64,000 bases of DNA from Curtobacterium sp. MCJR17_055 (GTDB lineage: Bacteria; Actinomycetota; Actinomycetes; Actinomycetales; Microbacteriaceae), in contig NZ_QKLF01000002.1 in assembly GCF_003224335.1 (NCBI RefSeq), positions 186,001-250,000 of the forward strand, read 5' to 3'. The notes under the pieces are model-generated. The model was not told the origin of the DNA. It was given only the letters and a program-made list of their open reading frames with translations, and ran no database searches. This document shows positions 8,093 to 45,932 of the stretch, piece after piece. The position numbers were made by a program, and so were the translations under genes. Numbering within the stretch: the stretch's first letter is position 1; each line of letters begins with the position of its first letter.

Positions 8093-11974
<3,882 letters not shown>

Positions 11975-12021
11975 TGTTCTTCTCTCTTGCTGAGTTCGAA
12001 ACGTGTTCGGTACGGGAGGGA

Positions 12022-15000
12022 TCAGATGTCGTCGACGGACGACGACTCGAACCGCGAGGAGATGTTGATGCCGAGCTCTTCAGCGGCACGGAAGACCTCG
12101 TCGTCCGTGTCGCGGAGGCTGACCGCCTGGCCGTCCGCCGAGAGGACCTCGACGTTCAGGCAGAGCGACTGCATCTCCTTCATGAGGACCTTGAACGACT
12201 CCGGGATGCCGGGCTCCTGGATGTTCTCGCCCTTGACGATCGCCTCGTAGACCTTCACGCGGCCGAGGATGTCGTCGGACTTGATCGTCAGGAGCTCCTG
12301 GAGGGCGTACGCGGCACCGTATGCCTCGAGCGCCCACACCTCCATCTCACCGAAGCGCTGTCCACCGAACTGCGCCTTCCCACCCAGCGGCTGCTGCGTG
12401 ATCATCGAGTACGGGCCGGTCGAACGGGCGTGGATCTTGTCGTCGACCAGGTGGTGCAGCTTCAGGATGTACATGTAGCCGACCGAGACGGGCTCCGGGA
12501 ACGGCTCGCCGGAGCGACCGTCGAAGAGCTGCGCCTTGCCCGAGGAACCGATCAGGCGCTCGCCGTCACGGTTCGGGAGCGTGGAGTCGAGGAGGCCCTC
12601 GATCTCGCGCTCGTACGCACCGTCGAACACCGGGGTGGCGACCTTCGTGCCGGGGGCTGCGCTGTGCGCGGCCTCGGGCAGGGCGGAGGCCCACTCCTGG
12701 ATGCCCTCGACGTTCCAGCCCTGCTTCGCGAGCCACCCGAGGTGGATCTCGAGGACCTGGCCGAAGTTCATGCGGCCGGGGACGCCGAGCGGGTTGAGGA
12801 CGATGTCGACCGGGGTGCCGTCCGCGAGGAAGGGCATGTCCTCCACGGGAAGGATCGTCGAGATGACGCCCTTGTTGCCGTGGCGGCCGGCGAGCTTGTC
12901 ACCCGCGGTGATCTTGCGCTTCTGGGCGATGTAGACGACCACGCGCTGGTTGACGCCCGAGCCGAGCTCGTCGTCGCCGTCCTGCGAGTCGAACACCTTG
13001 ACGCCGATGATCGTGCCCTCTTCACCGTGGGGCACCTTGAGCGAGGTGTCGCGGACTTCGCGCGACTTCTCGTTGAAGATGGCACGGAGCAGGCGCTCCT
13101 CGGCACTCAGCTCGGTCTCGCCCTTCGGCGTGACCTTGCCGACCAGGATGTCGCCGGGGCGGACCTCGGCACCGATCCGGATGATGCCGCGCTCGTCGAG
13201 GTCGGCCAGGAGGTCCGGGCTGACGTTCGGGAGGTCGCGGGTGATCTCCTCTTTCCCGAGCTTCGTGTCGCGGGCGTCGACCTCGTACTCCTCGATGTGG
13301 ATCGAGGAGAGCGTGTCGTCCTTCACGAGGTTCTGCGACAGGATCATCGCGTCCTCGTAGTTGTAGCCCTCCCACGGCATGAACGCGACGAGGAGGTTCT
13401 TGCCGAGCGCGAGCTCGCCGTTCTCCGTCGCGGGGCCGTCGGCGATGACCTCGCCCTGCTCCACACGCTCACCGGCGCTGACGATCACGCGGTGGTTGTA
13501 GCTGGTGCCCTGGTTCGAGCGGTCGAACTTGCGCAGGTAGTAGGTCTGCGTGCCGCCCTCGTCGAGCTGCAGGGTCACGGCGTCGGCCGAGACCTCGGAG
13601 ACGACGCCCGCCTTGTCGGCGGTGACGACGTCACCGGCGTCGATGGCGGTGTAGCCCTCCATGCCGGTGCCGACGAGCGGCGACTCGGAGCGGAGGAGCG
13701 GCACGGCCTGGCGCTGCATGTTCGCACCCATGAGGGCGCGGTTCGCGTCGTCGTGCTCGAGGAACGGGATGAGCGAGGTCGCGACCGACACCATCTGGCG
13801 CGGCGAGACGTCCATGTAGTCGACCTCGTCCTTGCCGACGAGCTCGACCTCCCCGCCCTTCTTGCGGACGAGCACCTTGTCGTCCTGGAAGTGGAAGTCG
13901 TCCGTCAGCGGGGCGTTGGCCTGCGCGACGACGAAGTCGTCCTCTTCCGAGGCCGTGAGGTAGTCGATGGTCGTGGTGACCTGACCGTTCACGACCCGGC
14001 GGTACGGGGTCTCGATGAAGCCGAAGGAGTTGATCCGACCGAACGACGCGAGCGAACCGATCAGGCCGATGTTCGGGCCTTCCGGGGTCTCGATCGGGCA
14101 CATGCGGCCGTAGTGCGACGGGTGGACGTCGCGGACCTCGACGCCGGCACGCTCACGGGACAGACCACCCGGGCCGAGGGCCGACAGACGCCGCTTGTGC
14201 GTCAGGCCCGCGAGCGGGTTGTTCTGGTCCATGAACTGCGACAGCTGGCTGGTCCCGAAGAACTCCTTGATCGCGGCGACGACGGGACGCACGTTGATGA
14301 GCGTCTGCGGCGTGATGGCCTCGATGTCCTGCGTGGTCATGCGCTCGCGGACGACGCGCTCCATGCGGGACAGACCCGTGCGGACCTGGTTCTGGATGAG
14401 CTCGCCGACGGCGCGGATGCGACGGTTGCCGAAGTGGTCGATGTCGTCCACGTCGAGGCGGAGCTGGACCGGCTCGCCGTCACGGATGCCGTCCATCGTG
14501 GTGCGCTCGGCGTGCAGCGACACGAGGTACTTGATCGTCGCGACGATGTCCTTGACGGTGAGCACCGAGTCGGACAGCGGGGCGTCGATGCCGAGCTTGC
14601 GGTCGAGCTTGTACCGACCGACCTTGGCCAGGTCGTAGCGCTTCGGGTTGAAGTAGAAGTTGTCGAGGAGCGCACGCGCGGCCTCGGCGGCGACCTGCTC
14701 GCCCGGACGGAGCTTCCGGTAGATGTCCTTGAGCGCCTCTTCCTTCGTGAGGACGGCGTCCTTCTCGAGGGTCGACTCCATGGACGCGAAGCCCTGGAAC
14801 TCCTCCATGATCTCTTCGCTCGTCAGGCCGAGGGCCTTGAGGAAGACGGTCACGGACTGCTTGCGCTTGCGGTCGATGCGCACGCCCACCTGGTCGCGCT
14901 TGTCGATCTCGAACTCGAGCCACGCACCGCGCGACGGGATGATGCGAGCGGAGTAGATGTCCTTGTCGGACGTCTTCTCCTGGGCGCGCTCGAAGTACAC

Positions 15001-35983: not shown

Positions 35984-36763
35984 GTGCCTGAGGGCGACAC
36001 CGTCTTCCGCGCCGCGGCCCGCCTGCACGCCGCGCTCGCGGGGAAGGTCCTGACCCGCAGCGACTTCCGCGTACCCGCGTTCGCCGCGCTCGACCTGGTC
36101 GGGCGGACGGTGGACGAGGTCGTGCCTCGCGGCAAGCACCTGCTGCACCGGATCGGCGACCTCACCGTGCATTCGCACCTCAAGATGGAGGGCCGGTGGG
36201 ACGTCTACCGGCCCGGCGAGCGCTGGCGGCGACCCGCGTTCCAGGCGCGCGTGGTGCTCGACGCCGCGGACGTGTCGACCGTCGGGTTCACGCTCGGGGT
36301 CCTCGAGGTCGTCCCGCGCGACCAGGAGTCCACCGTCGTCGGGCACCTCGGTCCGGACCTGCTCGGCCCGGACTGGGACGCCGACCTCGCCCTCGCGAAC
36401 CTCACCGCCGACCCGGAGCGACCGGTCGGCCTCGCCCTCCTCGACCAGCGGGTGATGGCGGGCCTCGGGAACGTCTACCGCAACGAGCTCTGCTTCCTGC
36501 GGGGCGTGCTGCCCACGCGCCCCGTCGGCGAGGTGCGCGACCCCGCGCGGATGGTGACCATGGCCTCCCGGCTCATCGTCGCCAACCGCGACCGGAGCAA
36601 CCGCGTGACCACGGGCGTCGACCGCCCGGGGCAGCGGTTCTGGGTCTACAACCGGGCCGGCAAGCCCTGCCTGCGCTGTGGCACGCGTGTCCGGTCGGGC
36701 GACCTGGGCGAGTCGGAGCTCACGCTGCGGGACACCTACTGGTGTCCGCGCTGCCAGACCTGA
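35984..36763 (+). CDS. nei2: Fpg/Nei-family DNA glycosylase (Nei2 type)
   Basis: 259 residues from GTG 35984. The catalytic Pro2-Glu3 (PEGDTVFRAA) and conserved Lys in VPRGKHLLHR are present, as is the helix-two-turn-helix LLDQRVMAGLGNVYRNELCF. The zinc finger has CLRCG and CPRC spaced as in Nei. Known role: excision of oxidised pyrimidines with beta/delta-lyase activity. The start region is triplicated: (G/A)TGCCTGAG occurs at 35952, 35968 and 35984, so ATG 35968 could also initiate, but only the last matches the required N-terminal PE. It follows lhr by 23 bp. Confidence 0.93.
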   Translation: MPEGDTVFRAAARLHAALAGKVLTRSDFRVPAFAALDLVGRTVDEVVPRGKHLLHRIGDLTVHSHLKMEGRWDVYRPGERWRRPAFQARVVLDAADVSTVGFTLGVLEVVPRDQESTVVGHLGPDLLGPDWDADLALANLTADPERPVGLALLDQRVMAGLGNVYRNELCFLRGVLPTRPVGEVRDPARMVTMASRLIVANRDRSNRVTTGVDRPGQRFWVYNRAGKPCLRCGTRVRSGDLGESELTLRDTYWCPRCQT

Positions 36764-36764
36764 C

Positions 36765-37289
36765 TCAGTGGTCGACGGCCTCGACGATGCAGCTCTGGAC
36801 CTGCTTCGCGGCCTTCGACGTCTCGGAGAAGGCGGACGGTGCTGCGGTCGCGGAGCCCTGCTCGTCGGCGACGACGTCCTCGGCGACCTTGTTCACCGGG
36901 AAGACCGGGCCGTCGAAGTCCTCGGCGGTGGGGTCCTCTTCCGTACCCCAGATGCCGACCTCGTCGTCGTTGGGGTCGTCGCTCGTGTTCGGGGCGACCG
37001 AGACGCCGAGGTACCAGCCCTCGTCGCTCTCCGTGACGCTGACGACGTCGGTGCCGTCGTGCGGGCCGACCGCCTCGTCGATCGCGTCGACGGCGGCGCT
37101 CGAGGCGACCCCGCACGGCGCACTGTTGCGCTGACCCGGGTCGGAGCGGGTCGCGGACTCCTCCGAGCCCGGCACCTTCCCGACCGGGTTGCCGTTCTGG
37201 GCACCGGCGTTCGAGCAGCCGCCGAGCAGCAGGCCGACGGTGGCGAGGCCGACGAGGGTGGCGGTGGTCTTCGCGCGCAAGGTGGTCAT
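36765..37289 (-). CDS. Putative lipoprotein, function unknown
   Basis: 174 residues from ATG 37289. A signal peptide (TTATLVGLATVGLLLGGCS) with lipobox LLGGC places Cys at about residue 25, so a lipid-anchored outer-face protein is predicted. The mature part is acidic and rich in Asp/Glu/Ser (SDDPNDDEVGIWGTEEDPTA), with a lone pair of cysteines (SAPCGVASS and VQSCIVEAV) that may form a disulfide. No domain recognised. It lies 78 bp downstream of the GH81 gene on the same strand and might be its distal partner, but the gap leaves this open. Confidence 0.75.
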   Translation of the reverse strand: MTTLRAKTTATLVGLATVGLLLGGCSNAGAQNGNPVGKVPGSEESATRSDPGQRNSAPCGVASSAAVDAIDEAVGPHDGTDVVSVTESDEGWYLGVSVAPNTSDDPNDDEVGIWGTEEDPTAEDFDGPVFPVNKVAEDVVADEQGSATAAPSAFSETSKAAKQVQSCIVEAVDH

Positions 37290-37367
37290 GCTCCCGACCG
37301 TAGGCCGCCGGAGGTGTGCCGGAGCCCAGGAGCGCGTCCCCCGACCGCGCTCCCGGTCCGGCACCCG

Positions 37368-39452
37368 CTACCCGCGCGCCATGATCCAGGCGAGCAGGTA
37401 CGAGCGGGTGTTGCCGGTGTCGATGTCCTCCGCCGGCAGGTCCCGCGCGGCGGCCAACGCGACCGTCGCCTGGCTGCCCGAGGCGAGCGCCCGGTACATG
37501 AGCAGGTAGTCCCCGAACTGCACCGCGTAGTCGCCCTCCGGCACGGCCTCGTCGAGGACCCGGGCGATCTGCCGCTTCCCGCCGGCCGCGACGTACTCCG
37601 TCGCGACCGCTGGCATCGGGATGAGCTCGATGCCGGCCGGTGCCGCCGGGTCCGCGCTGAACCACGTGGCGTGGTCCCGTTTGCCGCCCCAGTTCAGCGA
37701 GACGATCGTGTGCTCGAACCCGGGGAACGCGCGCAGGTCCGGGTCGAGCACGTCACGCTGGGCAGACACGGCCTCGTTCGCGAGCAGCCAGCTGCCGAGT
37801 TCCGCGGTCGACCGGGAGCCGGAGACCGTCCCCCAACGGGCGAGCCCGTTCCAGGCGGACACGGCCTCGGACGAGGACTCCTGGTTGTTCCCGTCCGCGA
37901 ACGGCGAGTACCCGGAGGCCCACGAGTGCTGCGCGTACGGGTCGTACACGCGGAGTTCCGGGAAGGACGCCGTCGCCTCCGGGGACGCGATGTCCGCGGC
38001 GACGAGGTCGAGCACGGGCGCCCACGCCGCGACGAGCTCGTCCGACCCGTCCGCGACGATCGCCGCTGCGGACAGCAGGTAGCCGTAGTGGAAGTGGTGG
38101 TCGTTGAACTCGTCCGAGCCGTAGGAGGGCGCTTGGCCGACCAGGCCCTTCACGGTGTCGTCGTACCGGAAGCACCGCGTGCCGCTGACGCCGCAGCCCT
38201 CCGGATCGGTCCACTGGTCGATCTGCGTGACCAACTGCTCCCGCAGGCCCGCGGCGACGTCGTCGAGGTCGAGCTGCGTGGCGAGCCGGTACAGGTTCGC
38301 GACCCGGTACAGGTCCTTGCCGCCGCCGTAGCTGTCGGCGCCGAAGGACGCCTCCGAGACCGCGCCGGCGTCCGCGCGGACCTGACCGGTCAGCTCGTCG
38401 CGTTCGGACGAGGACAGCCGGGACAGGTCCAACCGGTCGTCGGCCTGGAGGCTCGGGGCCGCGAACCGGAGCACGTCACCGGTGCAGACGGGGGCGTCCC
38501 CGGTGATGGTCGCGTAGTGCAGACCCGTGCAGTCCAGACCCGTCGCGCCCTGACCGGGCTGCGGCACGATGACGGTGTCGCCCCGTGCCGCGGTGCGGTA
38601 CCCGAGAGCGGTCCGCTGCTCGCCGTGGGTCGCGGTGCCGGTCGACGAGCGGGCGAGGGTGACCTGCTGCAACGGGGACGCCGCCGCGGTGGACAGGGCA
38701 CGCACCTGCTTGCCGGTCGCGTCGTCGGGCACGGGGAAGAGGACGACGGTGCCCCCGCGACCGAGCTCGATCGCGCTGCCGCTGACGTCGCCGCTGGTGA
38801 CGACGCCCCACGTGCGACCGTCGGCGGCGATGGTGCCCGTCGTCGTGCCGTCGGGGCCGTCACCGGTCGCGGTGATGCTCGAGGTCGCGCGCACGGTCTG
38901 TCCGGCCTCGGCCGTGTAGGACACGAGCGGGGACCCCTGCGCGAGGACGGTGTGCCCGACGACCCGGTCGCCGTCGCGGTGTTCGACCGTCACGGACACC
39001 TGGTCGTACGCGGACACGAGGGTCCGGTCGGCGCCGAGGTCGAGCCCGACCTGCTGCACCGCACCACCGGCGATCGTCTTCTCGGTGGCGCTCACCACGG
39101 GCAGCCCGGCGGCGAACCCGTCGTCGGTCACCTGCCACGAGATCGGGGTCGGGAAGACCGGCTGCGGTGCGGCGCCGTAGACCAGGCCGGAGAACCACCG
39201 GTTCGTCGGCGGGACGAGCCCGTCGGCGAGGCGCATGGTGCCCGCGGTGGTCTTCGGGACGGCACCGAGGGCGGCCAGGGCGCGGGCCTGGTCGCGGGCC
39301 TGTTCCCGGTCCGGACCGTCCGCGGACGGTGAGCCGGTCCCGGTGGCGCGGTCCGGGCCTCCCGTCCCGGTCTCGGCGCCGGTCCCGGTGCAGGCGGTGA
39401 GGACGAGCGCGGACGCGGCCACGAGGGCGACGGCAGCGGCACGGAGCCGCAC
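37368..39452 (-). CDS. GH81 endo-beta-1,3-glucanase, lipoprotein
   Basis: 694 residues from GTG 39452. Signal peptide with lipobox LVLTAC (Cys21) and a Thr/Gly-rich linker precede the enzyme. GH81 landmarks: VPPTNRWFSGLVYG at the N-terminal beta-sandwich, DEFNDHHFHYGYLLSAAAIV, VYDPYAQHSWASGYSPF and the catalytic segment ADGNNQESSSEAVSAW holding the conserved Glu residues. Known activity: endo-hydrolysis of beta-1,3-glucan (laminarin, curdlan). It starts 2 bp after the fusion-like gene and is the third gene of a cassette led by a membrane glycosyltransferase, a position comparable to the endoglucanase BcsZ in cellulose operons. That analogy suggests trimming of a self-made beta-glucan rather than feeding. 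Confidence 0.9.
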   Translation of the reverse strand: MRLRAAAVALVAASALVLTACTGTGAETGTGGPDRATGTGSPSADGPDREQARDQARALAALGAVPKTTAGTMRLADGLVPPTNRWFSGLVYGAAPQPVFPTPISWQVTDDGFAAGLPVVSATEKTIAGGAVQQVGLDLGADRTLVSAYDQVSVTVEHRDGDRVVGHTVLAQGSPLVSYTAEAGQTVRATSSITATGDGPDGTTTGTIAADGRTWGVVTSGDVSGSAIELGRGGTVVLFPVPDDATGKQVRALSTAAASPLQQVTLARSSTGTATHGEQRTALGYRTAARGDTVIVPQPGQGATGLDCTGLHYATITGDAPVCTGDVLRFAAPSLQADDRLDLSRLSSSERDELTGQVRADAGAVSEASFGADSYGGGKDLYRVANLYRLATQLDLDDVAAGLREQLVTQIDQWTDPEGCGVSGTRCFRYDDTVKGLVGQAPSYGSDEFNDHHFHYGYLLSAAAIVADGSDELVAAWAPVLDLVAADIASPEATASFPELRVYDPYAQHSWASGYSPFADGNNQESSSEAVSAWNGLARWGTVSGSRSTAELGSWLLANEAVSAQRDVLDPDLRAFPGFEHTIVSLNWGGKRDHATWFSADPAAPAGIELIPMPAVATEYVAAGGKRQIARVLDEAVPEGDYAVQFGDYLLMYRALASGSQATVALAAARDLPAEDIDTGNTRSYLLAWIMARG

Positions 39453-39454
39453 GC

Positions 39455-40195
39455 TCAGATCCCGATCTGACGGAGGAAGTCGCGGAACGCGTCGGTGACA
39501 CCGGCCAGCCGGCCGTCGTCGCGGAGGTGCAGTGTCGCGTCCACCGGGGTGCCCGGGCTCGTGACCCCGGACGACGGCGACGCCGACAGCTCCGGGCTCT
39601 CCACGGACACGGTCGTCTTCGCCTGGCCGTCGGCGTCGGTCACGACGCTGACGTTCTTGACGGTCCCCTCGATCGAGCGGTCGTTCGGCAGGCGCAAGTC
39701 GACCGTCGCACCGTCGGTGATCCGGCCGTAGTCGCGCGGGCTGACGAGGAACTCGGACGTGACGAACAGGCTCTTCGCCTTGTGGATCGTGCCGAGCTCC
39801 GAGCCGGCCTGCACGTACCCACCGGCTTTCACGTCGAGCTTCGCGACGGTGCCGGAGACCTCCGCCTTGAAGGTGATCAGGCCGTCGGACTCGATCTCGT
39901 ACGCGCTGGTGGTGGTGTCCGCGCCGACGACGCCCTTCCGGATGTCCTGGGCGAGCTGCAGGCTCTGGACCTGCATGAGCTCCTGCCCCTCGCGGACGGT
40001 GTCACCCTCCTCGACGTACTCCTCGGTGACCGTTCCGCCGTAGTCGGTGCCGACGGCGTACTCCTGCGCGGTGATGGCGGCCGAGGCACTCGTCACGGCG
40101 CTCCGCCGCTGGTTGAAGACGAGCGTGCAGGCCGCGACGACGACGAGCACGACCAGGATGCCACCGTACAGGCGGAGTCGGTTGGTCCAGGTCAT
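39455..40195 (-). CDS. HlyD/membrane-fusion-like protein of the glycosyltransferase cassette
   Basis: 246 residues from ATG 40195, overlapping the glycosyltransferase stop (ATGA). One N-terminal membrane helix (LYGGILVVLVVVAACTLVF) then an external part with a split lipoyl-like fold: GTDYGGTVTEEYVEEGDTVREGQ and ITFKAEVSGTVAKLDVKAGGYVQAGSEL, followed by a beta-barrel-like segment (VDLRLPNDRSIEGTVKNVSV). No ABC exporter or outer-membrane channel is encoded nearby. In Sinorhizobium, BgsB, a membrane-fusion-like protein, partners the beta-glucan synthase BgsA; the same pairing seems present here. The role, guiding polymer export, is inference. Confidence 0.78.
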   Translation of the reverse strand: MTWTNRLRLYGGILVVLVVVAACTLVFNQRRSAVTSASAAITAQEYAVGTDYGGTVTEEYVEEGDTVREGQELMQVQSLQLAQDIRKGVVGADTTTSAYEIESDGLITFKAEVSGTVAKLDVKAGGYVQAGSELGTIHKAKSLFVTSEFLVSPRDYGRITDGATVDLRLPNDRSIEGTVKNVSVVTDADGQAKTTVSVESPELSASPSSGVTSPGTPVDATLHLRDDGRLAGVTDAFRDFLRQIGI

Positions 40196-42159
40196 GATGC
40201 GACCTCCACGGCCGTCGGGGTGCCGGAGGCGGCGCTGGCGGTGATGACGTCGCGTGCGTTCTGCAGCGAGTCGGGGCGGACGACCTGCGTCCGGAGGGCG
40301 GGCGCGGGCTCGAGGCCGGCCGTGGCGAGGACGAAGACCGGAGCGGTGTCCGCGTCACGCTCCTGCCGGGCGGCCCGCCGGTTGACCGACTGCTCACGGA
40401 ACGCCGTGACGATGAAGGCGCCGAAGATGACCGAGTTCGTGATGTTCCACGCGGTGGCGAGCGTCAGCTGCCCGTTCGACACGTCACGCCAGATCGCGAC
40501 GACGCTCGTCAGGGACAGGAACACGAAGACGAGCACCTGCGGCACGATGAAGTTGAACGGCGAGGGCGCCCGGCCCCGACCGGCTCCCGTGACGTGCCAG
40601 GCCTGCTCCTTCCCGCAGAGCACGTTCCACAGCGCACGGGCGTAGATCGGGAACGACACCGCGGCCAGGAGCAGGGTCTCGTACCGGAACGACCCGAGGG
40701 CGTAGAACGCCAGGACGACCTGCATGAGGTAGAAGCCGAGGTAGAACAGCACCCACTCGCCGACCCCGATCGACATGTTCATCGGGCGGAGGTCGAAGAA
40801 GATCTCGAGCGGCGGGACGAGCAGCAGCAGGCCGGGGACGATGCCGGTCAGGTAGAAGCTCGCGGTGACGAAGTACTGCAGGCGCTGGTCCATCGTGAGC
40901 TTGCGCTTCGGGTTGAACGGGAAGTGCGTGAGCAGGATCTCGAACCCGCCGGTGGCCCAGCGGAGCTGCTGCTTGCTGTACGCCTCGATCGTCTCCGGAG
41001 CGTCGCCGACCGCCAGGGTCATCGGGATGAAGACCGACTTCCAGCCGCGCTCGTGCAGGTGCAGGCTCGTCCAGACGTCCTCGGACTTCGAGTCGGTGTG
41101 GATGCCGCCGACGTCGTCGATCGCCGCACGGCGGAAGATCACGTTCGTGCCGACGCAGAAGGCCGCGTTGAACCGGTTCCGGCCGGGCTGGATGAAGCGG
41201 TAGAACACCGTCTGCATGTAGCCGGCGCCGCGGGAGACGAGGTTGTGCAGGTTGCCGTACGTCTGCGGGGTCTGCACGAACGCGATCGACTCGTCCGCGA
41301 AGAACGGGACGGTCTCGAACAGGAAGTCCTTCGCGGGCACGAAGTCCGCGTCGAAGACGGCGAAGTAGTCGCCCTTCGCGAGCGTCAGGGCGTGGTTGAT
41401 GTTGCCCGCCTTCGCGCCGTTCGAGGACAGCCGACGGACGTACCGGGCACCGAGGCGGTCGGCGAGGGCGCGCACGTCGTCGCTCCGACCGTCGTCGAGG
41501 ATCCACGTGCGGTGCTCGCCGCGCATCGCGACCGCGGCGGCGACGGTCGCGGCGATCTTCGTCAGCTCCTCGCCGTACACGGTGATGAAGACGTCGACGA
41601 CGACCCGCTTGCCGCGGACGCGCATCGGCCAGCGGTGGCCGCGCTCGACGAGCCCGTCACGGGCGATCTCGTCGGGGTCGAAGAGCGTGTCCTGGGTGTT
41701 GTGGAACGCGAAGTCACGCGGGTCGGTACCGCCGGACAGGATCGTCCACATCGACAGCAGGGACTGCCCGACGAGGACGCTCTCCGCGATGATGACGAGC
41801 CCGTAGGGCAGGAAGTCCCCGCGGTTGGCGGGGTTGAGCAGGAACACCGCGTAGGTGACGACGCCGAGCGTCGCCAGCAGCACGATGAGCACCATGACCG
41901 GGCTGTGGGCCCGGGTGTCGCGGTTGCGGGCGGCGGCGGGCTGCTCGGTCACGTGGACGACCGGTGCGGCCGGGCGGTCGGCGCCTTCGGCGCCTTCGGG
42001 GCCTCGGGCGCCTCCGGCGACGACGCCGCCGGAGGACCGGCGACCGGTCCGGCGACGGGGCTGCCCGTCGGCGGGGACCTCGATCACGGTGCGGTCGTCG
42101 GGATCGGTCAGGGGTGCAGAGGTCGTCCGGGGTCGCCGGACGTCCGTGGGTGCGGACAT
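40192..42159 (-). CDS. Processive family-2 membrane glycosyltransferase (beta-glucan synthase-like)
   Basis: 655 residues from ATG 42159. A disordered ~85-residue head; two membrane helices (about 88-108, 117-140); a cytosolic GT2 domain with Asp in LDDG (222-224), DAD (270-272), SED (359-361, where BcsA has TED) and QQLRW (397-401, the QxxRW signature of processive enzymes); then about five more helices. FCVGT (334-338) occupies the priming-loop position. No PilZ domain is seen in the ~75-residue cytosolic tail, so BcsA-style c-di-GMP gating is not evident. First gene of the cassette with the fusion-like protein and GH81. Product is inferred to contain beta-1,3 linkages because of GH81; cellulose or mixed-linkage glucan remain possible. 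Confidence 0.88.
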   Translation of the reverse strand: MSAPTDVRRPRTTSAPLTDPDDRTVIEVPADGQPRRRTGRRSSGGVVAGGARGPEGAEGADRPAAPVVHVTEQPAAARNRDTRAHSPVMVLIVLLATLGVVTYAVFLLNPANRGDFLPYGLVIIAESVLVGQSLLSMWTILSGGTDPRDFAFHNTQDTLFDPDEIARDGLVERGHRWPMRVRGKRVVVDVFITVYGEELTKIAATVAAAVAMRGEHRTWILDDGRSDDVRALADRLGARYVRRLSSNGAKAGNINHALTLAKGDYFAVFDADFVPAKDFLFETVPFFADESIAFVQTPQTYGNLHNLVSRGAGYMQTVFYRFIQPGRNRFNAAFCVGTNVIFRRAAIDDVGGIHTDSKSEDVWTSLHLHERGWKSVFIPMTLAVGDAPETIEAYSKQQLRWATGGFEILLTHFPFNPKRKLTMDQRLQYFVTASFYLTGIVPGLLLLVPPLEIFFDLRPMNMSIGVGEWVLFYLGFYLMQVVLAFYALGSFRYETLLLAAVSFPIYARALWNVLCGKEQAWHVTGAGRGRAPSPFNFIVPQVLVFVFLSLTSVVAIWRDVSNGQLTLATAWNITNSVIFGAFIVTAFREQSVNRRAARQERDADTAPVFVLATAGLEPAPALRTQVVRPDSLQNARDVITASAASGTPTAVEVAS

Positions 42160-42554
42160 GCGCGTTCTCCTGTCGGGTGTCGGAGATGTCGATCCGTGTG
42201 CTCGCGGGGCACGACGGACGACGGGTGTCGGCGACGTCGGCGACAGGATCCGGACGCGGTGGTCCGGCACGGACGGAGGCCAGGGTTCCTCGTCCGGGGC
42301 ACGGTGCTCGCCGTGGGTGCGGCGTGCACCGGAGGGTCCGCCCTCGGGAGGCGGGACCGTGTTCGGTGGGTTCGGGTCGAGCTGCTGACGGCCCGCGCCG
42401 TCAGTGGTGCGATCGTACGACACGACCCGCGACCGCCATGTGACGATCGTGTGAACAGACCCCCAGGTCAGGGGGCACGGGCGCGGCGCGGCGCTGCTCG
42501 TGCGTTCCGCGGACATCGGTCCGCTTGGGCGCGTCACCGGTCCCGCACCGCAGG
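42160..42554 (-). promoter_or_regulatory. Upstream region of the glucan cassette with hairpin
   Basis: About 395 bp without a gene. On the minus strand TACGAT (42412-42417) is a possible -10; just after the expected start is an 8-bp perfect hairpin CTGACGGC-CCGC-GCCGTCAG (42385-42404). A leader of about 245 nt would result. ACGATCGT-type palindromes lie at 42442-42451. No convincing -35 was seen, which would suit an activator-dependent promoter. Confidence 0.45.
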
Positions 42555-43475
42555 TCAAGCCGGCCGATGGAGCCGTTCCGCAGCGACCGACCGCACGGCG
42601 TCCGTGACGCGTTCGAGCAGTGGTGACGCCGTCGTCCACCGCTGCCACCACAGCGCGACATCGGCCCGCCGCCCCGGGGTGAGCTCGACGAGCGCACCTG
42701 AACGAAGCGCGTCGAGGCACTGCGCCTCAGGCAGGAGCCCCCATCCGAACCCGAGCTGCACCGCGCGCGCGAAGTCGGCGGAGTTCGGGACGTAGTGCCG
42801 TGGACCGCGCGGCGCGTGCCCGAGGACCCGCCGGAGGAATCCCTGCTGCAGGTCGTCGTCACGGTCGTAGTCGACGAGCGGTACCCGGTCGAGTCTGGCC
42901 GTCATGCGCCGCTCGGTGTCGGCGCCGTCCAGGTACCGACGGACGAAGGACGGCGCGGCGACCGCCCGGTAGCGATCGACGCCGAGCGGGACGGAGGAGC
43001 AGCCCTGGACCGGTGCCGCCTCCGCCGTGACCGCCGCCATGACCGTGCCGGAGCGCAGCAGTTCGGCCGTCCGGTCCTGGTCCTCACGGTGCAGGTCGAA
43101 GACCACCTCGGTGTCGTGCCGCACCAGGGCGAGGGCGTCGAGGAACCACGTGGCGAGCGAGTCCGCATTCACGGCGAGGGGGATCGAAGGGGTGTGTCCC
43201 GCCCCGTCGGCGCCCGGCATGGCGAGTGCACGCGAGGTCTCCTCGTCGAGCAACCGCACCTGCCGCGCGTGCCGGAGCACGACCTCACCGTCGGCCGTGG
43301 GCGTGATCGGGGTGGTCCGCTGCAGCAGCACCCGCCCGACGAGTTGCTCCATCGCCTTGACCCGCTGGGAGACCGCCGACGGCGTGATCGACAGGGTCCG
43401 CGCGGCCGCGTCGAAGGTGCCCGTGTCGACGGCGGCAAGCAGTGTCTCGAGGTGGTCGCGCTGGAACTGCACCAT
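42555..43475 (-). CDS. lysG: LysR-type regulator LysG/ArgP
   Basis: 306 residues. N-terminal helix-turn-helix: LETLLAAVDTGTFDAAARTL, SITPSAVSQRVKAMEQLVGR. The effector domain has the ArgP-type start (LAVNADSLATWFLDALA) and HYVPNSADFARAVQLGFGWG, LLPEAQC near the C-terminus. Known role: activates export of lysine/arginine through LysE/ArgO when the amino acid is abundant. The divergent neighbour 68 bp away is a LysE transporter, confirming the classic lysG-lysE pair. The minus-strand TAAGCT near the ATG suggests a leaderless transcript. Confidence 0.93.
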   Translation of the reverse strand: MVQFQRDHLETLLAAVDTGTFDAAARTLSITPSAVSQRVKAMEQLVGRVLLQRTTPITPTADGEVVLRHARQVRLLDEETSRALAMPGADGAGHTPSIPLAVNADSLATWFLDALALVRHDTEVVFDLHREDQDRTAELLRSGTVMAAVTAEAAPVQGCSSVPLGVDRYRAVAAPSFVRRYLDGADTERRMTARLDRVPLVDYDRDDDLQQGFLRRVLGHAPRGPRHYVPNSADFARAVQLGFGWGLLPEAQCLDALRSGALVELTPGRRADVALWWQRWTTASPLLERVTDAVRSVAAERLHRPA

Positions 43476-43509
43476 GAGCGCAGCTTACGGCGCACCACGA
43501 TCATGAGCT

Positions 43510-43529
43510 GTGCTGATCCAGCCCAGCAC
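43510..43529. promoter_or_regulatory. LysG operator candidate
   Basis: Inverted repeat GTGCTG-8 nt-CAGCAC (43510-43529) centred in the 68-bp divergent lysG/lysE gap, upstream of a -10-like TACGGT (43531-43536) for lysE. Dyads in this position are the expected LysR-type binding site. Confidence 0.6.
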
Positions 43530-43543
43530 CGTACGGTTCCCCT

Positions 43544-44215
43544 GTGACCGCACTCCTCCCCGCTCTCTCCGGCCTCGGCACCGGCCTGGCCCTCATCGTC
43601 GCGATCGGGGTCCAGAACACCTACCTGCTGCGGCTCGCGGTCAGCGCGCGTCCGGGTGTGGTGGCGGTCGCGGTGGCCGTGTGCACGCTGTCCGACGCCG
43701 CCCTCATCGTCGCCGGGGTGCTCGGTGTCGGCGTGGTGGTCGAACGGGTGCCCGTGGCGCTGCTCGTCATTCGGTTCGTCGGGGCGGCGTTCCTGCTCAC
43801 CTACGGGGTGCTCGCGGCCCGGCGGGCGCTGCGCCCCTCGGACGAGGCGATCCGGCTCGAGGACCGTGCCGCAGACGACGGCACGCCGCCCGCCCGGCTC
43901 GGCGCGGGCCGTCCGGGTGGGCCGACCATGCGGGCCGCGGTCCTGACGATGCTCGTCTTCACGTGGGCGAACCCGCACGTGTACCTGGACACGCTCGTGT
44001 TCCTCGGGTCGGTCGCGAACCGACAGGGCGTCGACGACCGGTGGTGGTGGACCGTCGGCGCGGTGGCGGCGAGCTGCCTCTGGTTCGGTGCGCTCGGGTT
44101 CGGCGGACGGCTGCTGCGACCGCTGTTCGCGAAGCCGGTGACGTGGCGCGTGTTCGACGCCCTCGTCGCGGTCGTCATGCTCGCGTTCGGCGTGGCCCTG
44201 CTGCTCGGCGCCTGA
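43544..44215 (+). CDS. lysE: LysE/ArgO-family basic amino acid exporter
   Basis: 223 residues from GTG 43544. The family start is clear: GLGTGLALIVAIGVQNTYLL (conserved GxQN), followed by CTLSDAALIVAGVLGVGVVV and FTWANPHVYLDTLVFLGSVA with the conserved NPH segment. Six hydrophobic segments are expected. Known role: export of lysine and arginine, preventing toxicity when peptides are catabolised. The -10-like TACGGT lies eight bases before the start codon, so the mRNA is probably leaderless. Control by LysG is expected. Confidence 0.93.
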   Translation: MTALLPALSGLGTGLALIVAIGVQNTYLLRLAVSARPGVVAVAVAVCTLSDAALIVAGVLGVGVVVERVPVALLVIRFVGAAFLLTYGVLAARRALRPSDEAIRLEDRAADDGTPPARLGAGRPGGPTMRAAVLTMLVFTWANPHVYLDTLVFLGSVANRQGVDDRWWWTVGAVAASCLWFGALGFGGRLLRPLFAKPVTWRVFDALVAVVMLAFGVALLLGA

Positions 44216-44249
44216 CGCCGCCGTGGCAAGGGCCGCCGCGGCGCCGCGG

Positions 44250-44319
44250 TTCGACGCCCGCGGTTCGGCGCCCGCGGTTCGACGCCCGCGGTTCGGCGCC
44301 CGCGGTTCGACGCCCGCGG
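44250..44319. repeat. Five 14-bp tandem repeats
   Basis: Unit TTCGRCGCCCGCGG occurs five times, with A and G alternating at the fifth base, so the array also reads as 28-bp units. It lies between lysE and the hairpin at 44335. Not coding in any supportable frame. Confidence 0.93.
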
Positions 44320-44334
44320 TTCGGGCCGGTCTGA

Positions 44335-44392
44335 CGCAACGAGAGCCGGATCGAACCACGGAACACCGTGGTTCGATCCGGCTCTCGTTGTG
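44335..44392. terminator. Very long hairpin between convergent lysE and permease genes
   Basis: A 25-bp perfect stem (44337-44361 with 44366-44390), extendable by two pairs including one G-T, closes on an AACA loop between CCACGG and CCGTGG. It resembles the hairpin at 58143 in loop-proximal CCACGG/CCGTGG and in the outer GTTGTGCG end. It probably ends both transcripts. Confidence 0.85.
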
Positions 44393-44462
44393 CGGGTCCG
44401 GTCGGCGCTGGGTCCGGTCGGCGCTGGGACAGCGACGACCGAGCGCGGGCACCGGGCGGCGG

Positions 44463-45932
44463 TCAGTGCTCGCCGCGACCGACCCGGCTGTGCCGACGGC
44501 TGTAGCCGAAGTAGATCGCGAAGCCGATGACGAGCCAGACGACGAAGCGCAGCCAGGTCTCGACCTCGAGGTTGAGCATCAGCCAGAAGCACAGCACGGC
44601 GGACAGGATCGGGATGACCGGGGACCACGGCACCCGGAAGGCGCGCGGTGCGTCCGGACGCGACCTCCGCAGCACGATGATGCCGACCGACACGAGCACG
44701 AAGGCCGAGAGCGTGCCGATGTTGATCATGCCCTCGAGGTTCTCGACCGGCGTGAACCCGGCGAGGAACGCGACGATGATGCCCGCGACGACCTGCACCC
44801 GGACCGGGGTCTGCGTCTTCGGGTTCGTCACCGAGAACCAGCGCGGCAGCAGGCCGTCACGGCTCATCGAGAAGACGATGCGGGACAGGCCGAGCAGCAG
44901 CACCATGACGACGGTGGTCAGGCCGACGAGCGACCCGATCGCGATGATGCCCGCCGCCCAGGGCAGCCCGACGAGGTCGAACGCCGACGCCAGGGAGGGC
45001 GCGTCCTCCTGCGCGAGCTGCTTGTACGACACCATGCCGGTGATGACGATGCTGACGCCGACGTACAGCAGGGTCACGATGCCGAGCCCGATGAAGATGC
45101 CGCGCGGCAGGGTCTTCTGCGGGTTCTCCGTCTCCTCGGCACTCGTCGCGACGACGTCGAAACCGATGAACGCGAAGAACACCAGGGAGGCGGCGGCGAG
45201 CAGGCCGAAGACGCCGTACTGCGCGGGCTCGGACCCGGTGGCGAAGGACACGAGCGACTGGGTCCAGACACTCCCCTCGGCGCCCTTCGCGGGCTCCGCC
45301 GTGGGGATGAACGGCGTGAAGTTGGCGGCCTTGACGAAGAAGGCGCCGACCACGATGACGAACAGGACGATCGCGACCTTGATGATCGTGATCACCGCGG
45401 ACACCCGGCTCGACAGGCGGGTGCCGAACGCCAGCAGCGCCGTGAAGACGCCGACGATGAGCACCGGCCCCCACGTGAAGCCGATCGGGCCGAGGGCGAT
45501 CGTGCTCGGCAGCGTGATGCCGAAGACGTCGAACGCGGTGCTGAGGTAGATGCCCCAGTACTTCGCGATCACGGCACTGGCCGTCAGCGTCTCGAGGATG
45601 AGGTCCCACCCGACGATCCAGGCGAGCAGCTCGCCCATCGTGGCGTAGGTGAACGTGTACGCGGACCCGGCGACCGGGATCGTCGAGGCGAACTCGGCGT
45701 AACACATGATCGCCAGGCCACACGTGACCGCGGCGAGGATGAACGAGATGATGACGCCGGGTCCGGCGAAGTTGGCGGCGGCGTTCGCGCCGACCGAGAA
45801 GATGCCGGCACCGACCGCGACGGCGATCCCCATCGCGGCGATGTCGAACGTCCCCAGCGAGCGCTTGAGCGAGCGCCCCTTCTCGTCGGCGTCGGCGAGC
45901 GACGCTTCGATGGACTTGGTGCGGAGGGCCAT
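44463..45932 (-). CDS. APC-family amino acid permease
   Basis: 489 residues. TM1 carries the substrate-backbone motif GAGIFSVG (residues about 41-48), preceded by LGTFDIAAMGIAVAVG; about twelve hydrophobic segments follow. FFAFIGFDVVATSAEETENP is the conserved segment of cationic-amino-acid-transporter type APC proteins, and RIVFSMSRDGLLPRWFSVTNP is the conserved cytosolic loop. Known role: uptake of amino acids at the cytoplasmic membrane; the CAT-like motifs hint at basic amino acids, which would complement lysE nearby, but this is inference. Convergent with lysE across the long hairpin. Confidence 0.92.
   Translation of the reverse strand: MALRTKSIEASLADADEKGRSLKRSLGTFDIAAMGIAVAVGAGIFSVGANAAANFAGPGVIISFILAAVTCGLAIMCYAEFASTIPVAGSAYTFTYATMGELLAWIVGWDLILETLTASAVIAKYWGIYLSTAFDVFGITLPSTIALGPIGFTWGPVLIVGVFTALLAFGTRLSSRVSAVITIIKVAIVLFVIVVGAFFVKAANFTPFIPTAEPAKGAEGSVWTQSLVSFATGSEPAQYGVFGLLAAASLVFFAFIGFDVVATSAEETENPQKTLPRGIFIGLGIVTLLYVGVSIVITGMVSYKQLAQEDAPSLASAFDLVGLPWAAGIIAIGSLVGLTTVVMVLLLGLSRIVFSMSRDGLLPRWFSVTNPKTQTPVRVQVVAGIIVAFLAGFTPVENLEGMINIGTLSAFVLVSVGIIVLRRSRPDAPRAFRVPWSPVIPILSAVLCFWLMLNLEVETWLRFVVWLVIGFAIYFGYSRRHSRVGRGEH

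Follow-up and report, generated by a model that had tools for sequence, protein, structure and literature searches.

The genome of Curtobacterium sp. MCJR17_055 (3.29 Mb) carries, within the 64,000-nucleotide stretch analysed here (contig NZ_QKLF01000002.1, positions 186,001 to 250,000; the window), three tightly packed minus-strand genes that encode a processive family 2 glycosyltransferase (GT2), a protein of the HlyD/membrane-fusion-protein family (MFP) and a protein of the endo-β-1,3-glucanase glycoside hydrolase family 81 (GH81). We propose, at a probability of roughly 60%, that this triad is an operon that makes a linear, curdlan-like β-1,3-glucan and exports it across the monoderm envelope. 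The β-1,3 linkage is inferred mainly because the partner hydrolase belongs to GH81, a β-1,3-glucanase family whose enzymes are known for contiguous β-1,3 linkages. Open reading frame (ORF) coordinates agree with the arrangement described in an earlier reading made without database searches (the sequence-only reading): the order is GT2, MFP, GH81, with a 4-bp overlap at the first junction and a 2-bp gap at the second (Table 1). The GT2 start codon was picked by eye, as the listed ORF extends further upstream. A protein from Curtobacterium sp. MCBD17_023 shares 99% identity with the window GT2.

In loci from named genomes (the best 80 of 445 matches, a choice that favours the closest relatives), the three genes were consecutive on one strand in 77, and all three exceptions (L086, L121 and L124) stop at a contig edge. 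The carriers are bacteria of soil and plants, and the 80 loci presumably represent Microbacteriaceae, Cellulomonadaceae and neighbours, Demequina and Propionibacteriales. Because the order repeats in so many of them, its recurrence is more than chance, which bears out the claim that the genes form a single system. By our own gene calling and clustering, the GT2, MFP and GH81 families occurred in 80, 78 and 77 of the loci and the next commonest neighbour families in 21 and 16, the flanks being otherwise genus-dependent. With gene starts set by our own script, the GT2–MFP overlap was 4 bp in 74 of 82 GT2 genes, and the MFP–GH81 junction was a 4-bp overlap in 23 genes. GT2, MFP and GH81 distances agreed over 67 loci (r 0.82, 0.85 and 0.75; 0 of 999 permutations each), 13 loci with missing, doubled or short genes having been dropped; such agreement is also expected from shared descent alone. 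Two Demequina loci (L102 and L134) have the doubled order GT2–MFP–GT2–MFP–GH81.

Table 1 Positions and properties of the cassette and its leader in the window
Feature	Position	Strand	Size	Properties
GT2, processive synthase	40192..42159	-	655 aa, ATG	DDG/DADF/FCVGT/SED/QQLRW; gating motif WHVTG; no PilZ
MFP, HlyD/MFP-family	39455..40195	-	246 aa, ATG	One transmembrane helix, barrel-sandwich, beta-barrel; without long coiled-coil hairpin
GH81, endo-β-1,3-glucanase family protein	37368..39452	-	694 aa, GTG	Lipobox VLTAC, Cys21; Asp451 and Glu525 kept
ATGA overlap, GT2 stop/MFP start	40192..40195	-	4 bp	Probable translational coupling
5′ leader of operon	42160..42430	-		Conserved, possibly structured; putative regulatory role

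Genome surveys gave a similar picture. A GT2 orthologue (at least 57% identity) was found in 13 of 59 genomes, the source genome included (10 of the 36 from the genus and 3 of the 23 from other parts of the order). The MFP gene and the start of the GH81 gene adjoin it in all 13, and the GH81 orthologue is confined to these same genomes, being split across two contigs in G023. One further genome (G007; L189, 3890-9316) retains only an 84%-identical C-terminal piece of GH81 between the same LysR and small lipoprotein genes; by eye, the site now holds ABC-transporter-like and small secreted-protein ORFs, and the cassette has apparently been lost there. In a survey of the phylum (E 1e-60, at most four candidates scored per genome), no match above 46% identity was listed among 295 other genomes. 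In the genus of Cellulomonas gelida, 51 of 80 genomes carry the GT2 (in G102 over two frames), and GH81 of the operon type is present in 50 of these 51 and in none of the 29 GT2-negative genomes. The lone GT2-positive genome without it, G077, has its GT2 on a 4.7-kb contig, cut by the contig end. Adjacency was checked in 30 of the 51: the MFP lay beside the GT2 in all 30 and GH81 in 29, the exception (L161) being G077.

Many of these genomes also contain a distinct, long type of GH81, which shares 29–38% identity with the operon type across the surveys. It is carried by 13 of the 59 genomes at about 30–37% identity, 7 of which, apart from G007, lack the GT2 and belong to the Curtobacterium genus; it also occurs alone in 4 of the 29 GT2-negative Cellulomonas-genus genomes. 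G057 encodes a GH81 of 1148 aa with 30% identity, and a GT2 search of this genome gave no match at 1e-30. In three Cellulomonas loci (L116, L120 and L125) the operon GH81 gene is immediately followed by a second GH81 gene, for a protein of about 1,100 aa whose signal looks cleavable. The sequence-only reading had stated that GH81 occurring mostly without GT2 in relatives would speak against a joint system. In the genomes surveyed the operon type was always found with the GT2, the G007 remnant aside, whereas the long type does occur apart from it, in the 7 Curtobacterium-genus and 4 Cellulomonas-genus genomes.

The hydrolase itself appears intact. Glyco_hydro81C (Pfam) matches it with 136.6 bits, against a cut-off of 25.6, placing it in GH81. 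Asp451 and Glu525 align with the BH0236 stretches NDHHFHYG and GNNQES and are taken, by analogy with BH0236, to be the catalytic acid and base. Both are invariant in 38 aligned orthologues; the acid motif is present in all 80 loci and the base motif in 77, its absence coinciding with a contig end in L068 and L080 and a frame break in L074. In the last of these (Naasia aerilata, 9622-12574; a complete genome) the operon GH81 gene runs across three frames, possibly as a pseudogene or through sequencing error. The window GH81 begins with a hydrophobic stretch that ends in the lipobox, as does that of the near-identical L062; the sequence thus agrees with the lipid anchor and the intact catalytic region claimed for this protein. 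Among 79 of the 80 GH81 gene calls surveyed (L068, cut short, was excluded), 55 N-termini have a lipobox by pattern and 12, from Cellulomonas/Actinotalea, have by eye a transmembrane-like anchor with no Cys, for which a cleavable signal is possible. Three, those of the roughly 1,100-aa tandem paralogues, carry a signal that looks cleavable, and nine were left unclassed (seven probable start errors and two whose Cys escaped the pattern). The operon GH81 thus looks membrane-tethered, by lipid or by helix, as judged from these N-termini.

The GT2 matches Pfam GT2 families (best 85.5 bits), and its best relatives in the Protein Data Bank (PDB) are BcsA proteins (168 bits). Its catalytic motifs are as the sequence-only reading described them, and Pfam gave no PilZ match, again as claimed; the seven or so membrane helices of that reading are recovered as candidates at a lenient hydropathy threshold (1.3), with four at a strict one (1.6). 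DDG, DADF, SED, QQxRW and WxxTG patterns are present in all 82 GT2 orthologues and FCVGT in 77. The MFP matches HlyD_3 with 60.4 bits (Pfam cut-off 22.2), and hydropathy gives it one helix. Its structural model (pLDDT 91) contains a transmembrane helix at residues 3-31, a barrel-sandwich, a beta-barrel and a C-terminal helix; this combination of membrane anchor and core is that of the HlyD/MFP family, and the fold matches ZneB, MacA and EmrA. The two half-lipoyl segments make one barrel-sandwich fold, in keeping with the single helix and split lipoyl-like segments noted in the sequence-only reading. A long alpha-hairpin was sought in the model, and only an 8-residue helix (79-86) lies between the lipoyl halves. 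Such a hairpin is typical of diderm HlyD/MFP members, though not universal. The fusion protein BesA is also among the fold matches; it differs from the MFP in being an efflux partner in a diderm.

To place the synthase, we compared 51 GT2s over 412 columns (IQ-TREE, rooted on PgaC/IcaA). The triad fell with other actinobacterial GT2s, with weak deep support (95.7/69 for the group, 44/57 for its split from NodC). A mixture-model tree of 32 rows, from which 14 triad rows and five near-copies or long branches were left out, supported the triad at 98-99 and the actinobacterial group at 99. Grouping with hyaluronan or chitin synthases, which the sequence-only reading had considered adverse, was not seen for NodC (weakly placed), PgaC or IcaA, in trees that contain no hyaluronan synthase, RiGT2 or CcsA. 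Among the 51 GT2s, SED is confined to the 26 triad rows, two near-identical CrdS rows and the actinobacterial L211, and CVGT to the same rows save one triad row with SVGT. The triad shares FCVGT/SED with CrdS; the corresponding motifs are CCGS/TED in BgsA and FCGS/TED in BcsA.

Several results weigh against assigning a β-1,3 linkage to this synthase. Orthology with CrdS, first suggested by FCVGT/SED, was rejected, as a clade of triad and CrdS failed an approximately unbiased (AU) test (p 4.1e-6); the shared motif is thus either convergent for β-1,3 linkage or not linkage-specific. L211 (5911-9945, in G022), a long branch in the tree, is a 1344-aa GT2 fused to acyltransferase-3 and SGNH domains and also has CVGT/SED. 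Five CrdS channel residues have been named as differing from BcsA (Gln237, Lys270, His374, Trp422 and His442; PMC6821405), and a linkage prediction from them proved neither supportive nor discriminating: one of the five, Gln237, is identical in the triad (26 of 26 rows), and it also occurs in BgsA and in all the other groups checked apart from BcsA. At the other sites the triad has Arg for Lys, and Val, Ile/Val and Leu/Met for His, Trp and His. C. gelida is reported to lack a curdlan exopolysaccharide (EPS) (PMC3035266), and yet it carries the triad (L133), so expression or assignment may differ. In Agrobacterium C58, crdASC is present and curdlan is not measurable (PMC10819609). Finally, C. 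flavigena has another CrdS-like GT2 that is still a candidate for its curdlan; in favour of the triad, this GT2 has FCGS/TED in the genome we took as that species, and its next three genes encode neither an MFP nor a glycoside hydrolase.

The literature on Cellulomonas bears directly on the proposal. The sequence-only reading knew of no such system in actinobacteria, yet curdlan had already been reported for Cellulomonas, according to PMC3035266 and PMC3544764, which cite C. flavigena curdlan in print from 2005 or earlier. According to PMC3544764, C. flavigena makes curdlan abundantly and other species a little, its reuse of the polymer is called unclear, and two CrdS-like GT2s are listed per cellulomonad (Cfla_3154/2615, Celf_3456/3585 and Celgi_1506/0939). 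The genomes we took as C. flavigena 134, C. fimi and C. gilvus all carry the triad (3 of 3) and two BgsA-like GT2 places each. Because relative positions fit the locus tags, one of the two CrdS-like GT2s per cellulomonad probably is the triad GT2. The other of the two in C. flavigena (L213, 6177-10897) is cellulose-like and contains an insert, and the genes after it encode STAS, HATPase and MASE1/SpoIIE proteins; L214 (6145-8504) holds a similar GT2 with an insert and an adjoining HATPase gene; this type is possibly a partner-switch-controlled synthase. A GT2/HlyD/GH81 operon was not described in the titles and abstract beginnings of the open-access literature searched, and the system of PMC12691653 is a different one of Wzx/Wzy type.

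Known synthase operons offer partial parallels. The locus we took as Agrobacterium crdASC (L144; 14 of 14 CrdS residues in its GT2 by PMC6821405 numbering, and a crdA of 1455 bp, where PMC10819609 gives 1458 bp) resembles the triad in having an HlyD-family gene, a processive GT2 with CVGT/SED and no PilZ match, and a third gene. It differs in that CrdA, at 484 aa, is longer than the 246-aa MFP and includes, by a crude scan, a long stretch rich in helix; an MFP profile did not match CrdA and gave a local match of 32 columns to BgsB. At the level of sequence, a GH81 profile showed no similarity to CrdC. In the PDB, CrdC (L144, 5707-6987) itself weakly matches an endo-β-1,2-glucanase (E 0.0033), hinting at a likeness to glycoside hydrolases. 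The likeness in gene content is no more than suggestive. In the unannotated record taken as Sinorhizobium meliloti bgsBA (L142), an HlyD-family protein likewise adjoins a GT2 without a PilZ match; the BgsA motifs and GT2 clade are different, and the bgsBA operon is not known to include a hydrolase. The BgsA–BgsB comparison drawn by the sequence-only reading thus holds for gene content only; a clade joining the triad with CrdS and BgsA was rejected.

Two cellulose operons pair a synthase with a cognate hydrolase. BcsABZC combines a BcsA-type GT2 with an endoglucanase; unlike it, the triad has no BcsB, BcsC or PilZ and has GH81 in place of GH8. Clostridial ccsZABHI (PMC7710045) is a Gram-positive synthase operon with a cognate glycoside hydrolase, the specificity of which served to name the polymer; it differs in a CcsA with PilZ, a CcsB that is CBM-like rather than HlyD-like, a GH5 CcsZ and O-acetylation genes. 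Among related actinobacterial GT2s, a neighbour scan found GH8 beside L210, a GH5-family gene one gene from L206 and GH81 beside the triad GT2; L207 and L209 carry PilZ.

An unlikely alternative is that the cassette makes a mixed-linkage β-1,3/1,4-glucan, in the manner of BgsA or RiGT2, with β-1,3 runs that GH81 could cleave. The pairing of GT2 and MFP is also that of the bgsBA record, a Gram-positive mixed-linkage synthase exists (PMC10374906) and the channel residues give no particular indication of a CrdS-type specificity. The two BgsA rows have CCGS/TED, however, not FCVGT/SED, and constraining the triad with CrdS, both BgsA rows, L146 and L219 jointly was rejected (p-AU 7.5e-6). GH81 enzymes are known for acting on contiguous β-1,3 bonds. 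In the S. meliloti glucan the 1,3 bonds occur singly (PMC10374906).

It is considerably less probable that the GT2 is a cellulose synthase beside which GH81 stands for some other reason. Database names ('cellulose synthase catalytic subunit', 'cellulose synthase (UDP-forming)') say so and its PDB relatives are BcsA, but the NCBIfam model CelA gives it 244.3 bits, well short of the 699.1 that the cut-off requires; PilZ is missing, the conserved unit has no BcsB or GH8 family, SED replaces TED, and the partner is from a β-1,3 hydrolase family. Slightly more improbable still is a nutritional or antifungal GH81 whose operon happens to include an unrelated polysaccharide synthase. The separate long GH81 in many of these genomes suggests that the family may serve foraging, yet the operon type is distinct from it, occurs always with the GT2 where present in the 80 Cellulomonas-genus genomes, looks tethered and tracks the GT2 in the distance comparison. 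A dedicated β-1,3-glucan operon remains the reading we prefer.

Upstream of the GT2, a leader of about 270 nt is recognisable in nine Curtobacterium-group loci (the window, L004-L008, L010, L065 and L066). A hairpin GACGGC...GCCGTC is kept in all nine, and the ribosome-binding site lies within a predicted stem. Among the nine sequences, 10 of 45 predicted pairs changed on both sides (no control was run), and folding of the window leader alone gave z -2.35. A scan for promoters and terminators found none. Rfam (E up to 1, 36000-44500) returned nothing in the leader and nothing elsewhere except two mir-434 matches whose scores fall far short of the gathering threshold; these lie, on both strands, at 44323-44403, a stretch between LysE and amino-acid-permease genes that looks repeat-like by eye.

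On the proposed model, the GT2 would polymerise UDP-glucose in the cytosol and thread the chain through its own membrane channel, as expected of a BcsA-type enzyme. The membrane-anchored MFP, made in step with it, would form an extracytoplasmic collar that receives the chain; lacking a long hairpin in its model, it would not reach towards an outer membrane as diderm fusion proteins do. The tethered GH81 would cut nascent or misassembled β-1,3 chains, as is thought of BcsZ and CcsZ for cellulose, and may begin reuse of the polymer. Because the GT2 is not a CrdS orthologue in the tree, the β-1,3 linkage would have evolved apart from that of alphaproteobacterial CrdS. Tentatively, and at rather less than even odds, we extend this to a fuller account: an actinobacterial β-1,3-glucan synthase that arose from a local GT2 lineage, with FCVGT/SED convergent with CrdS, joined a hairpin-less MFP and a tethered GH81, and constitutes the Cellulomonas curdlan operon. 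That account predicts matching roles for CrdA as a collar and CrdC in trimming. If it is true, the triad would name one gene set, with its cognate β-1,3-glucanase, for curdlan synthesis and reuse in C. flavigena, and would correct the 'cellulose synthase' annotation. It would also define a minimal monoderm synthase, with a single GT2, a small adaptor and a hydrolase as its parts, and add another, independent lineage for tracing the determinants of β-1,3 versus β-1,4 linkage.

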